From an uncultured Verrucomicrobiota bacterium (lineage in GTDB: Bacteria; Verrucomicrobiota; Verrucomicrobiia; Limisphaerales; UBA9464), in assembly GCA_903880005.1 (NCBI GenBank), contig CAIRNV010000038.1, forward strand, positions 1 to 55,359: a stretch of DNA of 55,359 nucleotides, read 5' to 3'. The notes under the pieces were generated by a model. The model saw only the letters and a program-made list of their open reading frames with translations, had not been told where the DNA came from and did no database searches. Made by a program: the position numbers and the translations under genes. Below, one piece after another: positions 2,289-50,932 of the stretch; within the stretch, counting starts at the first letter, position 1; every line of letters starts with the position of its first letter.

Positions 2289-3128
2289 ATGAGCATTCCT
2301 CAGACTGGATTGACGGGAGAATTCGCCAGGTTGGTTGTCTGGCTGGCCTTGCTGTGCGCCATCTTCCTGCCGTTGGAACGCCTGGCGTCGGTGAGGCCGC
2401 AACGCGTCCTCCGGCGGGAGTTTGCCACGGATCTCGTCTGGTACTTCGTGAACGGGTTGGTGGCGGGGCTGATTCTGGGCGTGCCCGTCGCCGCCTTGGC
2501 GACGTGGTCCCGAAAACTCATGCCCTCCGGATTCCTCGAATGGACCGGCAACCTTCCCATCTGGGTGCGCGTCGTGGCCGGCTTCGTGGTCGGCGACCTG
2601 GGCTACTACCTCTACCACCGCATCTGCCATCACGTGCCTTGGCTTTGGCGGTTCCACGCCGTCCACCACAGCGCCCAGGACATGGACTTCCTCGTGAACA
2701 CCCGGGCGCATCCGCTGGACCTTGTGGCGGGGCGGTTGGCGGGCTTGGTGCCGCTCTACCTCCTCGGGCTGGCAGGCCCCGTGGGGGCCAAGGGAACCTG
2801 GGTCCCCATCATCATCGGCCTCTTCGGAAACTTCTGGGGCTTCTTCATCCACTCCAACCTTCGCGTGCGGCTGGGCCCCATCGAGTGGCTCCTCTCCACC
2901 CCGTCCTTCCATCACTGGCACCACACGCAACGCGGCCCCATCAACCGCAACTTCGCCGCCATGGTCCCGGGCCTCGACCGCCTCTTCGGCACCCATCACA
3001 ACCCGCCCGGCCAATGGCCGGATTCCTACGGCATCGAGGAATCCATGCCCGACGACGTCGGCGGCCAGCTCCTCGACCCATTCGGCTCCCGGAAACGCAC
3101 GAACGCCGAGCCCTCGACCGCCTCGTGA
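2289..3128 (+). CDS. Sterol desaturase / fatty acid hydroxylase family protein
   Basis: This 279-residue integral membrane protein belongs to the di-iron fatty acid hydroxylase superfamily. The histidine boxes are HRICHH (110-115), HAVHH (123-127) and HHWHH (208-212), with a further His near 188; these would bind two irons. Hydrophobic segments at about 14-30, 47-70, 92-108 and 155-190 form the membrane core. Members introduce a hydroxyl group or double bond into sterols, fatty acids or carotenoids using O2; the substrate is not evident here. The ATG at 2289 is chosen because upstream in-frame sequence is low complexity. The gene converges on the chalcone isomerase-like gene. Confidence 0.85.
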   Translation: MSIPQTGLTGEFARLVVWLALLCAIFLPLERLASVRPQRVLRREFATDLVWYFVNGLVAGLILGVPVAALATWSRKLMPSGFLEWTGNLPIWVRVVAGFVVGDLGYYLYHRICHHVPWLWRFHAVHHSAQDMDFLVNTRAHPLDLVAGRLAGLVPLYLLGLAGPVGAKGTWVPIIIGLFGNFWGFFIHSNLRVRLGPIEWLLSTPSFHHWHHTQRGPINRNFAAMVPGLDRLFGTHHNPPGQWPDSYGIEESMPDDVGGQLLDPFGSRKRTNAEPSTAS

Positions 3129-3191
3129 CGCGGCTTCCAGGCCGGACGGCAGCGGCGTCCTCCCTTTCCCTGACCAGGGGTGGGCGCGCCT

Positions 3192-3797
3192 TCACGACTT
3201 CGACATCCCCAGCAAGCGGTCCCGCAGCCCCTTGTGGATGGGCTCCTTGCCCAGCCAAATCCGGAGGTAACGCGGCCCGAACTCGTCGCCCTCCAAGGTC
3301 ACCAGCGGCTTGCCATTCAAGCGCAGGGTCAACCCGCGCCCGGGCACGTGGGTCAGCGTGTAACGGTCTCCCGGCTTCACATCGACGTACGCCCGGTTGA
3401 GTCGTTCGAGGGCGGGTTGCAGCGACTTCCATTCCTCCGCCGAGACATTCTTCTCCAGCAATGCATTGCCGCCCTCGGCGACTTGGCGGGCGCTGAATGG
3501 CCGGTGGTACTTGAACTCCAAACGCACGGCGCCCCCCTCCAGCGGCTTCTCGCGCAGCGTGCCGGGCCCAAGCCGCAGGTCCACGTCGTATACGTCCAGC
3601 CAGCCCTTCCAACGAAACGTCGTCCCCACCACGTGCGCGAATCGAACCCCGTCCTCCTCCACCACCGAACTCGCCTCGGCCGCGGGCACCGGCGCGGACG
3701 ACGGAACCGCCGCCGAGGCATCCGCGGCCGCGCACGCCTGCGCGAGAAAGCCCGCCGCCATCAACGCGGGTGGAATACGCCCAAACCATGTGCCCAT
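3192..3797 (-). CDS. Secreted chalcone isomerase-like protein
   Basis: This 201-residue protein has an N-terminal signal-like segment (about 1-24, RIPPALMAAGFLAQACA) and an Ala/Pro/Ser linker to about 45. The rest resembles bacterial chalcone isomerase-like (Chalcone_3) domains: GVRFAHVVGTTFRWKGWLDV, then KYHRPFSARQVAEGG and the closing LRIWLGKEPIHKGLRDRLL. Bacterial members are periplasmic or lipid-associated and most lack proven isomerase activity. The start is uncertain: ATG at 3797 or ATG at 3809 both place the signal peptide correctly. The gene is divergent from the PSCyt2 gene at 3917 and could share a promoter region with it. Confidence 0.75.
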   Translation of the reverse strand: MGTWFGRIPPALMAAGFLAQACAAADASAAVPSSAPVPAAEASSVVEEDGVRFAHVVGTTFRWKGWLDVYDVDLRLGPGTLREKPLEGGAVRLEFKYHRPFSARQVAEGGNALLEKNVSAEEWKSLQPALERLNRAYVDVKPGDRYTLTHVPGRGLTLRLNGKPLVTLEGDEFGPRYLRIWLGKEPIHKGLRDRLLGMSKS

Positions 3798-10703: not shown

Positions 10704-10874
10704 TAAGCCGGAACGATTCAGTTGGATCGGTCGTGCTTGCTCGATCTGCTCCCGCAAATCCTTCGTCGTTCGCTCGTTACGGGCCTCGAACCGGCCCGCG
10801 CCTCGCTCACTCCTCGGCTTGCAAAAGAATCCGCGGCGCAATCACTTCCCTCCCAATTGAATCGTTCCGGCTAA
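10704..10874 (+). repeat. 165-bp TIR repeat, full copy 1
   Basis: The core runs 10707-10871 and is flanked by a 3-bp direct repeat TAA (10704-10706 and 10872-10874). The terminal inverted repeats are GCCGGAACGATTCAGTTGG and its near-complement at the right end, which has one G-T wobble. An internal GGGCC/GGCCC hairpin sits near the middle. The right-hand third (AAAAGAATCCGCGGCGC) differs from the other copies. It lies 15 bp after the hisF stop and directly before the DUF486 gene. Confidence 0.9.
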
Positions 10875-30263: not shown

Positions 30264-30434
30264 TCAGCCAGAACGATTCAGTTGGGTCGGTCGTGCTTGC
30301 TCGATCTGCTTCCGCAAATCCTTCGTCCTTCGCTCGTTACGGGCCTCGTACCGGCCCGCGCCGCGCTCACTCCTCGGCTTGCGCAAGCATCTGCTTCGCA
30401 ATCCCTTCCCTCCCAACTCCATCGTTCCGGCTCA
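30264..30434 (+). repeat. 165-bp TIR repeat, full copy 2
   Basis: The core is 30267-30431, flanked by the perfect 3-bp direct repeat TCA on both sides (30264-30266 and 30432-30434). The arms are the least matched of the four copies: GCCAGAACGATTCAGTTGG on the left against GCCGGAACGATGGAGTTGG read from the right. It lies 4 bp beyond the stop of the minus-strand kinase gene. Confidence 0.9.
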
Positions 30435-31507: not shown

Positions 31508-32878
31508 ATGACGTTGACGGAGAAGTTGCTGGCGCGAGCGGCAGGCAAGGCGCGGGTTTCCGCTGGGGACAACATTTGGGTGAAGGCAGACGTCCTCATG
31601 ACGCACGACGTCTGCGGTCCCGGGACGATCGGGGTCTTCAAGCGGGAGTTCGGCAAGACGGCGCGGGTCTGGGACCGGGAGCGGGTGGTGATCATCCCCG
31701 ACCACTACATCTTCACGGCGGACTCGAAATCGAACCGCAACGTGGACATCCTCCGAGATTTCGCTCGCGAGCAAGGGTTGCCGTACTTCTACGACGTGAT
31801 CGACGAGCCAGGCGGGCAGTGGAAGTTCGACACGTCGAAGGGGCTGCTGAAGCGTCAGTATGGGTCGCAGTACGCGGGCGTCTGCCATGCGGCGTTGCCG
31901 CAGAAGGGGCACACACGACCCGGCGAGATCTTGTTCGGGACGGACTCGCACACGTGCATGGCCGGGGCGTTCAACGAGTTTGCGACGGGCATTGGCAACA
32001 CGGATGCGGGGTTCGTGATGGGAACCGGCAAGCTGCTGATCAAGGTGCCCGAGACGATGCGTTTCAGGCTTGAAGGCCGGTTGCAACCCGGCGTCATGGC
32101 CAAGGACCTCATCCTCCACATCATCGGCGAGATCGGCTTTGACGGGGCAACCTACCGCGCCATGCAATTCGACGGCCCGGGCGTGGCGTCGTTGTCGATG
32201 GACGACCGGATGACGGTGGCCAACATGGCCATCGAGGCGGGCGGCAAGAACGGCATTTTCCCGTTCGACGCACGCACGGCGGAGTACGTCGAGGCCCGGA
32301 CCCGCCTGAACGGGACGCGGTCACATTACGAGCCCGTCGAGGCGGATGCCGACCAGGCGTTCTGCTACGAGACGGTCGTGGACCTCGACAAGCTGGAGCC
32401 GACGGTTGCCTGCCATCCCGACCCTGGCCAACGGAAGCGGGCCCGCGACATGGCCGACGTCCGCCTGGACCGCGCCTACATCGGGTCCTGCACCGGGGGC
32501 AAGACGTCGGACTTCGTGGAGTTTGCGCGGGTGGTCCGCGGGCGTCGGGTGGCGATCGACACGTTTGGGGTTCCCGCCACTCCGGAGATCGTGCACGACT
32601 TGCAAACCACCCGCTGGGGTGGGGAGACCATTTGGGACATCCTCGTGGGATCGGGCGTGCAAATGACCGAGAACGCCGGTTGCGCGGCGTGCCTCGGGGG
32701 GCCGGTGGACACGTTCGGCCGCATGAATACGCCGTTGAAGTGCATCAGCGCCACCAACCGCAACTTCCCCGGGCGCATGGGGCACAAGGACTCCCAGGTG
32801 TTCCTCGCCAGCCCCGCGACCGTCGCCGCGTCCGCCTTGGCGGGCCATGTGGCCGATCCACGAGCGCTCGTGGCTTAG
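31508..32878 (+). CDS. Aconitase-family dehydratase large subunit (LeuC-like)
   Basis: This 456-residue protein carries the aconitase superfamily [4Fe-4S] site: Cys328 (YIGSCTGGKTSDF), Cys392 and Cys395 (ENAGCAACLGGP). Substrate and active-site motifs include TDSHTCMAGAFNEFATGIGN and DVCGPGTIGVF. It is closest in layout to 3-isopropylmalate or homoaconitate dehydratase large subunits, which isomerise hydroxyacids in leucine or lysine synthesis. No small subunit (LeuD) gene is in the window, so its exact substrate is uncertain. The start at 31508 matches LeuC starts (MTLTEKLLARAAG). The TAG stop (32876-32878) overlaps the left boundary of repeat copy 3. Confidence 0.88.
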   Translation: MTLTEKLLARAAGKARVSAGDNIWVKADVLMTHDVCGPGTIGVFKREFGKTARVWDRERVVIIPDHYIFTADSKSNRNVDILRDFAREQGLPYFYDVIDEPGGQWKFDTSKGLLKRQYGSQYAGVCHAALPQKGHTRPGEILFGTDSHTCMAGAFNEFATGIGNTDAGFVMGTGKLLIKVPETMRFRLEGRLQPGVMAKDLILHIIGEIGFDGATYRAMQFDGPGVASLSMDDRMTVANMAIEAGGKNGIFPFDARTAEYVEARTRLNGTRSHYEPVEADADQAFCYETVVDLDKLEPTVACHPDPGQRKRARDMADVRLDRAYIGSCTGGKTSDFVEFARVVRGRRVAIDTFGVPATPEIVHDLQTTRWGGETIWDILVGSGVQMTENAGCAACLGGPVDTFGRMNTPLKCISATNRNFPGRMGHKDSQVFLASPATVAASALAGHVADPRALVA

Positions 32879-33045
32879 CCGTAACGATTCAGTTGGATCG
32901 GTCGTGCTGGCTCGATCTGCTTGCGCAAATCCTTCGTCGTTCGCTCGTTACGGGCCTCGTACCGGCCCGCGCCTTGCTCACTCCTCGGCTTGCGCAAGCA
33001 TCTGCTTCGCAATCACTTCCCTCCCAACGGAATCGTTACGGCTTA
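32875..33045 (+). repeat. 165-bp TIR repeat, full copy 3
   Basis: The core is 32878-33042 with flanking direct repeat TTA (32875-32877 and 33043-33045). The arms are GCCGTAACGATTCAGTTGG and, read from the right, GCCGTAACGATTCCGTTGG. The T at arm position 5 is changed on both sides relative to copies 1 and 4, so pairing is kept. The LeuC-like stop codon TAG straddles the left boundary. A truncated second left end follows without a gap, sharing the TTA. Confidence 0.92.
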
Positions 33046-33095
33046 GCCGGGACGATTCGGTTGGGTCGGTCGCCCTTGCTGGATGTTTTTTTTGG
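33046..33095 (+). repeat. Truncated repeat, left end only
   Basis: GCCGGGACGATTCGGTTGG continues as GTCGGTCGCCCTTGCTGG and then diverges at a run of eight Ts. It matches the first 45 or so bases of the full element and abuts copy 3, sharing its TTA flank. It could be a nested or tandem insertion that lost its right part. Confidence 0.7.
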
Positions 33096-49062: not shown

Positions 49063-49554
49063 TCAGCCGGCCTGGGCTGGCCGCCGAGCCATCCACCGCA
49101 ACGCCCAGCCCGTGCCGAGTGCGTAAACGAGCACGCTCTGGGCATACCCGAGCGGGTCGATGGACCCTGCCTGCGGATGCGAAGGCGCAAGATACGGCGC
49201 GATGGAGCCCCAGGCCAACAGCGCCGAACCCCAGCTCAACCCACTGGCGAGCGGCCATAGCCGGGACGATTCAGTTGGGAGGGAAGTGATTGCGAAGCAG
49301 ATGCTTGCGCAAGCCGAGGAGTGAGCGAGACGCGGGCCGGTGCGAGGCCCGTAACGAGCGAACGACGAAGGATTTGCGGAAGCAGATCGAGCAAGCACGA
49401 CCGATCCAACTGAATCGTCCCGGCTTAGCCACCAACCGCGAAAACGACCGGCCGCGAGCAAGGCGGCCTGGCAAAAACCCAGGCAAAGGCCCATCACGAC
49501 ATAGGTGAACCAGGCCAACGCCATCGAAAGCACGAACCCAAGTCCCGTGGCCAC
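49063..49554 (-). CDS. Small membrane protein with in-frame 165-bp repeat
   Basis: This 163-residue protein starts at GTG 49554, 13 bp after the Gfo/Idh gene on the same strand. Residues 1-38 form a membrane helix (VLSMALAWFTYVVMGLCLGF, then CQAALLAAG). Residues about 44-99 are encoded by a full repeat copy read through without a stop (SRDDSVGSVVLARSASANPS and onward). Two further hydrophobic segments follow (GLSWGSALLAWGSIAPYL and AQSVLVYALGTGWALRWMA). Without the repeat and one flank triplet the frame is intact and leaves about 107 residues. The host family is not recognised. Either the insert is tolerated as a surface loop or the gene is inactive. Confidence 0.6.
   Translation of the reverse strand: MATGLGFVLSMALAWFTYVVMGLCLGFCQAALLAAGRFRGWWLSRDDSVGSVVLARSASANPSSFARYGPRTGPRLAHSSACASICFAITSLPTESSRLWPLASGLSWGSALLAWGSIAPYLAPSHPQAGSIDPLGYAQSVLVYALGTGWALRWMARRPAQAG
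49257..49427 (-). repeat. 165-bp TIR repeat, full copy 4 (inside a gene)
   Basis: The core is 49260-49424. The arms are a perfect 19-bp inverted repeat, GCCGGGACGATTCAGTTGG. The flanks read TAA and TAT on the minus strand, one mismatch from a TNA duplication. Orientation is opposite to copies 1-3. Core plus one triplet is 168 bp, so the reading frame of the host membrane protein is kept. Confidence 0.92.
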
Positions 49555-49567
49555 CGGCCCCGCCCCC

Positions 49568-50932
49568 TTACACCTTGCTCGGCGTGGGATGCACCCACGG
49601 CGCGCGATAGGGCCGCGCGAGGAGCTTGTTGGCCTCCTTGTCCCCGACGACCTCGTGCTTGACCGGGTCCCAGCGAAGCGAACGACCGAGCTTCATGGAC
49701 AGGTTGGCCAGGATGCAGGACGCGGTGGAGATGTGGCCCTCCTCGATGTCGGCGACGGGCCGTGAGCGGGACTCAACGCACTCAAGGAGGTTCTTCATGT
49801 GGCCGCGGATGGCCGGGGCGACGTGCCGCTCGAGATCCTTCTCGTCGCGGTCCTCGGGGTAGAGGTCCAGCTCCATCACCTGGTCCTTGTGCTCCGGCTT
49901 GCCGCCGTCGCGCGGGATGAAGTCGTAGCTGAACACGCTCGCCTTCAAGGTCCCCTTCTCCCCGTAGAACGTGGCGGACCAAGGATACTTCGGGTCCGGC
50001 GTCTCACCCCACGTGCGGTGCGTCCAGACGACCTTCACGTCGTTGAAGTCGAAGGTGGCCGTCTGCGTGTCCGTGATGTTCGCGCGGGCGGCCTTGTCCA
50101 CGAGGATGCCGCCGGACGACGCCACGGAAACCGGCCATCCAAGGCCCATCATCCACCGCACCATGTCGAGCATGTGGATGCACATGTCGCCCACGATCCC
50201 GTTGCCGTACTCCATGAACGCGCGCCAACCCCGGGGATGGGCGATCTTGTTGTAAGGGCGCATCGGCGCGGGCCCCGTCCACATGTCCCAGTCCAGGTAG
50301 TCGGGCGGGGCCGTGTCCGGAGCGGTGGCGAGGGTGTCGCGGTTGCGCATGTGCCAGTAGCAGCAGACCTCGACGTAGGCGATCTTGCCCAGGCGCCCTT
50401 CCTTGATGAAGCGGTCCCGCGCCTCGATGAGGTGGGGGGTCGAACGGCGTTGGGTGCCCACCTGGACGACGCGTCCGTGCTTGCGCGCGGCGGCGAGCAT
50501 CGACTGGCTTTCCACCACGTCCACGCCCGTCGGCTTCTGCACGTAGATGTCCGCGCCCGCCTTGCACGCCTCGATCACGGGCAACGCATGCCAATGATCC
50601 GGCGTCCCGATCACCACGACCTCCAGATCCTTCTCCGCCAGCATCTTCCGGTAGTCCGAGTAAAGACGGGGGCGTTTCCCCGACTTTTGCCGCGATGCCA
50701 CGATGCCCGCCGCGCCCTCCAGCATCTGCTTGTCCACGTCGCACAACGACACCACCTCGACCGGGGCGACCTGGATCATGCGCAGCAGGTCCGCCTTGCC
50801 GTACCAACCCGTGCCGATGAGCCCCACGCGCCGGGGCTTGGGCTCGATGGCGAAAGTGGTGGGGACGTAGGTCGCGGCGGCGGTCGCGGCGAGCGCGGCG
50901 GAACCCTGCTGGAGGAACGTGCGGCGTGTCAT
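49568..50932 (-). CDS. Tat-exported Gfo/Idh/MocA oxidoreductase
   Basis: This 454-residue protein has a twin-arginine leader (MTRRTFLQQGSAALAATAAA). The Rossmann NAD(P) site is RRVGLIGTGWYGKADLLRMI, followed by VIGTPDHWHALPVIEACKAG and DIYVQKPTG (EKP-like motif with Gln for Glu). The C-terminal domain includes GIVGDMCIHMLDMVRWMMGL with the substrate-binding Asp/His region. Exported members are abundant in Verrucomicrobiota and Planctomycetota and act on sugars or sugar acids; some carry tightly bound cofactor. The start 50932 fits the leader. It is followed at 13 bp by the repeat-bearing membrane protein gene. Confidence 0.93.
   Translation of the reverse strand: MTRRTFLQQGSAALAATAAATYVPTTFAIEPKPRRVGLIGTGWYGKADLLRMIQVAPVEVVSLCDVDKQMLEGAAGIVASRQKSGKRPRLYSDYRKMLAEKDLEVVVIGTPDHWHALPVIEACKAGADIYVQKPTGVDVVESQSMLAAARKHGRVVQVGTQRRSTPHLIEARDRFIKEGRLGKIAYVEVCCYWHMRNRDTLATAPDTAPPDYLDWDMWTGPAPMRPYNKIAHPRGWRAFMEYGNGIVGDMCIHMLDMVRWMMGLGWPVSVASSGGILVDKAARANITDTQTATFDFNDVKVVWTHRTWGETPDPKYPWSATFYGEKGTLKASVFSYDFIPRDGGKPEHKDQVMELDLYPEDRDEKDLERHVAPAIRGHMKNLLECVESRSRPVADIEEGHISTASCILANLSMKLGRSLRWDPVKHEVVGDKEANKLLARPYRAPWVHPTPSKV

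Follow-up and report, generated by a model that had tools for sequence, protein, structure and literature searches.

A high-copy palindromic element lies in frame within a probable membrane-protein gene remnant and within export leaders of a Verrucomicrobial genome

The window analysed here, that is, the whole stretch of 55,359 nucleotides (contig CAIRNV010000038.1 of assembly GCA_903880005.1, from an uncultured Verrucomicrobiota bacterium), carries on its minus strand an open reading frame of 163 aa (49063..49554), which represents the 3′ part of a membrane-protein gene whose 5′ part is missing. A Gfo/Idh/MocA gene (49568..50932, minus strand) lies upstream, its stop 13 nt before this frame. 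Embedded in the frame is one copy of a 167-bp, nearly full-length hairpin repeat (49259..49425, minus strand), recognised by repeat matches, fold and open frame. Orthologue alignment defines the two host halves on either side of it: an upstream half (49426..49554, minus strand), equivalent to approximately residues 77-119 of the orthologue, and a downstream half (49063..49258, minus strand) that begins with TATGGCCGCTCGCC. An earlier note, made from the sequence alone, had described a full repeat copy inserted in frame at this place, and this is confirmed. Its core length of 165 bp has to be corrected to 167 bp, while its net gain of 168 bp, or 56 codons, stands, one duplicated base being added to the element. 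The copy is 93-94% identical over ~170 nt to three others, all on the plus strand: 10706..10872 (intergenic, flanks CTA/AAG), 30266..30432 (flanks CTC/CAG) and 32877..33043 (flanks CTT/TAG). A partial copy (33045..33084, plus strand) is arranged in tandem to the last of these at a 168-bp pitch, which brings the window to four full copies and one partial tandem copy.

The 163-aa host protein was searched in 58 relatives. In G006 both halves of the host gene are directly adjacent in a whole gene of 185 aa; host residues 1-43 match it with E = 2e-11, and the other half is found directly next to this match. The G040 orthologue is also whole, with contiguous halves and 38% identity. In the sister genome G004 the halves are contiguous, but the gene is decayed, having acquired a TAG stop and lost 44 codons. 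All three orthologues are free of the insert and pass straight from one half into the other at the insertion codon, which was the check that the earlier note had proposed. At the junction, the window reads GRFRGWWL[56 aa]WPLASGLSWG, compared with GRVRGWFLWPMISGASWW in G006 and GQFRRAYLWPLLGGMAWA in G040; more closely around the site, GWWL[insert]WPLASG corresponds to GWFLWPMISG in a relative, with LWP conserved at the insertion point. The identities cluster at this LWP, at an LLAAG segment and at a C-terminal ALGTG.ALRWM motif. Neither the host protein nor its orthologue matched any family in Pfam or NCBIfam, and the codon scores of the host frame are weak. Relative to the whole G006 orthologue, the window gene lacks ~76 N-terminal codons, including those of the first membrane helices. 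Thus the insertion into a membrane-protein gene, as proposed earlier, is borne out by the orthologues, but the host itself is likely nonfunctional because it is 5′-truncated and decayed in its sister genome. The window case is probably an in-frame insertion in a gene remnant. In G040 (L186, C1 46046-49534), the homologous membrane domain has a C-terminal fusion partner that resembles DCC-type thiol oxidoreductases in its YYDGACSFCERW motif.

Approximately 320 copies of the element are present in the source genome (5.02 Mb, 492 contigs), mostly between genes, and many contigs of this draft terminate inside a copy. A 20-mer from the middle of the element gave 326 genome matches with at most 2 mismatches and its reversed control gave 0; the element folds into a hairpin on either strand (z = -6.8 and -10.1). 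Both results place the repeat far beyond chance. Copies were taken by region, and the counts that follow describe a sample rather than the whole genome. The length is exactly 167 bp in 105 of 108 sampled full copies, which is too short for a transposase frame. The ends read AGCCGGAACGAT...ATCGTTCCGGCT, and the terminal arms of ~20 bp are paired in the fold. The strand starting with CTN-AGC-CGG is stop-free in most copies, and in the window the host frame reads its copy as CTA-AGC-CGG. In frame 0, 97 of the 107 genome copies sampled and all four window copies are free of stops, as the earlier note had observed for the host frame; a random, composition-matched frame of 55 codons would be open 28% of the time. 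A search of the window against Rfam found no RNA family, and the element found no match in a plasmid collection. An internally deleted form of 82 bp with the same ends (net insertion 83 bp) is recurrent in the source genome (L083 2912-2994; L135 1321-1403; L149 2628-2710; L157 2412-2494; L158 2386-2468; L159 2427-2509).

The element is flanked as CTN/AGCC...GGCT/NAG (slashes mark its borders). The left and right N are the same base in 83 of 107 copies, and this arrangement recurs in the congener G007. Identical flanking 5-mers are found in 39 of 107 copies, and the outer flank positions vary more than expected if a 5-bp duplication had decayed. At the window site, CTAAG on the left, CTATG on the right and the host codons CTA TGG fit a one-base duplication. 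Whether the duplication comprises one base or the whole CTNAG, the host gains a net 168 bp (56 codons). As CTNAG is re-formed at every junction, tandem copies are spaced by exactly 168 bp. In relatives, the window gene and the genes of contig C423, the sulfatase and the hydrolase described below are uninterrupted at the corresponding sites, which shows that the element has moved. It is a MITE-like, Verrucomicrobial family with the target CTNAG, which is regarded as distinct from the Rickettsia palindromic elements (RPE). The enzyme that mobilises it would presumably be supplied in trans. Pairs of element ends lying 0.8-4.3 kb apart, inspected by eye in part of the genome as a trace of a parent IS, enclose ordinary-looking genes and no recognised transposase. 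Mobilisation by RAYT was considered and rejected: both Y1 transposase genes (PF01797 loci) found in the source genome are unflanked by the element.

Two further in-frame copies, independent and in opposite orientations, are found together on contig C423 of the source genome (L055 (G000:C423) 2740-2906 and 3094-3258). They reside in a polyamine-aminopropyltransferase-like gene, an open frame of 1003 aa with a Spermine_synth domain and a hydrophobic N-terminal part, which has matches in 32 of 39 genomes searched. Identity to the window copy is 96% for the sense copy and 85% for the antisense one. All 7 aligned orthologues are without both copies; the inserts sit at variable positions where orthologues are short or empty, and the frame stays open through to the conserved C-terminus. 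In addition, at least seven copies, some of them only partial, sit in frame after a start codon and ahead of an export signal. Prepilin-like leaders carry them at L051 6905-7070, L140 949-1026 and L060 4681-4761, and the leaders of other secreted proteins at L152 2503-2621 and L159 12218-12300, again as full or partial copies. Full copies are present in the signal peptides of a sulfatase (L054 2117-2282) and a hydrolase (L084 3615-3781). In orthologues of the latter two, the signal peptide is similarly long and uninterrupted, which makes it very likely that the start codon 5′ of the element is original. In the hydrolase, the insert splits the hydrophobic core, and its export may therefore be impaired. 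The C423 gene and the export leaders provide better evidence of tolerance than the window gene does. Two leader-like cases, L049 and L086, were left out of the count because another element lies directly upstream and their start is uncertain. The copies at L050 and L158 were rejected as in-gene copies, since they appear before the start and past the 3′ end of genes, respectively. At L056 (G000:C236) 558-724, the antisense frame of the element introduces a stop into coding sequence and has probably disrupted the gene.

Two-sided codon scoring, which is blind to insertions near a start codon, returned few in-gene copies; the leader insertions were revealed by a frame-by-frame scan. Seven of the 11 insertions in coding sequence lie within 10 codons of the start (P ~5e-6 if 8% are expected), and 6 of 7 full copies within coding sequence are open, against a six-frame mean of 30% (P ~0.004). 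Both values were obtained from a sample that is to some extent biased by ascertainment, the N-terminal cases having been discovered partly through being open.

Several other explanations of the window case can be weighed against these data. The flanking frame might be a chance open sequence in a GC-rich genome, in which no gene was ever interrupted, as the lack of a Pfam or NCBIfam match and the weak codon scores would allow. However, the significant G006 match with its adjacent second half, the alignment of the whole protein in G040 and the clustering of identities refute this reading, to which we give practically no credence. It is highly improbable, too, that the metagenomic assembler joined unrelated contigs through the repeat. 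Short-read assembly can indeed mis-join at common repeats, and many contig ends of this 492-contig draft fall within the element; yet in G006, G040 and G004 a single orthologous gene accounts for the two halves, with order, orientation and frame preserved, one conserved gene continues colinearly on either side of both C423 copies, and a chance chimera would not bring back such colinearity. Another reading holds that the window frame still encodes a working protein, restarted at GTG 49554, in which the insert is tolerated. No stop interrupts the frame before the normal C-terminus, and the GTG follows a purine-rich stretch, but with ~76 codons and the first membrane helices gone, and with the gene decayed in G004, this is unlikely.

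A different question is whether the element encodes a selected peptide, its length and frame being kept through regular translation in hosts. The predominance of open copies in frame 0, a net gain that is a multiple of three and the uniform length (105 of 108 copies) could be taken in favour of this; a recently amplified family, however, would be uniform in length anyway. The singleton substitutions in frame 0 comprise 32 synonymous (expected 28.5 +/- 4.5) and 69 nonsynonymous ones (expected 70), and those making stops number 0 versus an expected 2.5 +/- 1.5, so there is no synonymous bias. Moreover, the copies are mainly intergenic, the net insertion is 164 or 169 bp in G007 and 83 bp in the short form, and the host fusions employ three different element frames. 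These observations make a selected peptide very unlikely, and on the same grounds the suggestion of the earlier note that the element length is selected to preserve frame is unsupported. Divisibility by three is a property of the amplified subfamily, for which selection is not demonstrated; it would be a by-product of which subfamily happened to amplify. The net insertions in G023 are 167, 168 or 181 bp. Diverged relatives of the element (L163-L182, in G007, G023, G029 and G046), from other genera and families of the order, have cores of 163, 166, 168, 180 and 182 bp.

The reading that we favour, and regard as highly probable, is that a high-copy, non-autonomous, palindromic element of the MITE type was inserted into a protein gene, and that the in-gene copies retained are mostly those that are open and lie where they would be tolerated. 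As the flanks and the empty site show, the 167-bp element lands at CTNAG-like targets and adds a net 168 bp. Because 168 is divisible by three and one strand is mostly stop-free, an insertion in the right phase adds 56 codons rather than breaking the gene. Selection may then filter the in-gene copies for an open frame and for a tolerated position. The copies found lie in variable loops of a membrane enzyme, in exported or pilin-like leaders and in an already decaying gene, where extra residues would be tolerated. The in-gene copies would be translated within their host proteins, which are predicted from sequence to gain ~56 aa wherever a copy is in frame. Inserts in signal peptides and prepilin leaders would probably be cut off on export by signal or prepilin peptidase. 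As a tentative extension, for which we see a limited chance, the mobile hairpin may have repeatedly entered export signals, its peptide being added after the start codon and before the hydrophobic core of signal peptides and prepilin leaders and then removed by cleavage on export, so that secreted and pilin-like genes would form a protected niche within coding DNA.

The best-known case of palindromic repeats spreading in frame into proteins is that of Rickettsia, an obligate intracellular group whose genomes are reduced. That an apparently unrelated Verrucomicrobial family of ~320 copies does likewise suggests that the phenomenon is not bound to the intracellular lifestyle. The C423 gene, the sulfatase and the hydrolase are natural pairs of genes with and without an insert, in which tolerance could be measured, and export leaders are indicated as intragenic places where mobile elements may ride at little cost. 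The element also calls for caution with such assemblies, which it helps to fragment and in whose predicted proteins it puts unrelated residues.

Among known systems, RPE are palindromes of 105-146 bp found in frame in Rickettsia genes; translation and activity were demonstrated for one guanylate kinase that carries an RPE, and the target duplication of RPE is given as unknown (PMC2229807). They have terminal inverted repeats and many copies, both intergenic and in frame in conserved genes, where the host protein can tolerate the extra peptide (PMC2229807, PMC10969869, PMC3767692). The comparison with RPE made in the earlier note is apt as an analogy, since here too a palindromic repeat is in frame in protein genes (the window gene, C423 twice and the export leaders). 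However, the present element is longer, belongs to a different phylum and is likened to RPE by behaviour, not by sequence homology; its in-gene copies are a small minority, many of them in export leaders, and its flanks are CTNAG. Fused frames are also made by Correia and ERIC elements (PMC2229807, PMC10969869). These and other bacterial MITEs (the Correia 107-bp form, ERIC, YPAL) are 100-200 bp long, with terminal inverted repeats, a stable hairpin, no transposase gene and open frames fused to host ORFs, and several of the listed families have 5′-TA-3′ at their termini (PMC2229807). The present element shares the hairpin, the terminal inverted repeats, the absence of a transposase gene and the fused frames, but differs in its CTNAG flanks. 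One Verrucomicrobia species has been reported to be rich in GTAG repeats (PMC3733652). High-copy palindromes are likewise typical of the GTAG/CGTC REP with their RAYT, but REPs are 20-40 bp long with an unpaired GTAG or CGTC tag, whereas this element has 167 bp and paired ends. Its identity with a RAYT-mobilised REP was rejected on unit size, paired ends and absence at the PF01797 loci. Searches of the open-access literature for the target motif or for Verrucomicrobial MITEs yielded no description of this element. The sole other named genome found with close copies of the element is that of the uncultured Verrucomicrobia bacterium LaPlata-b_bin-1236.
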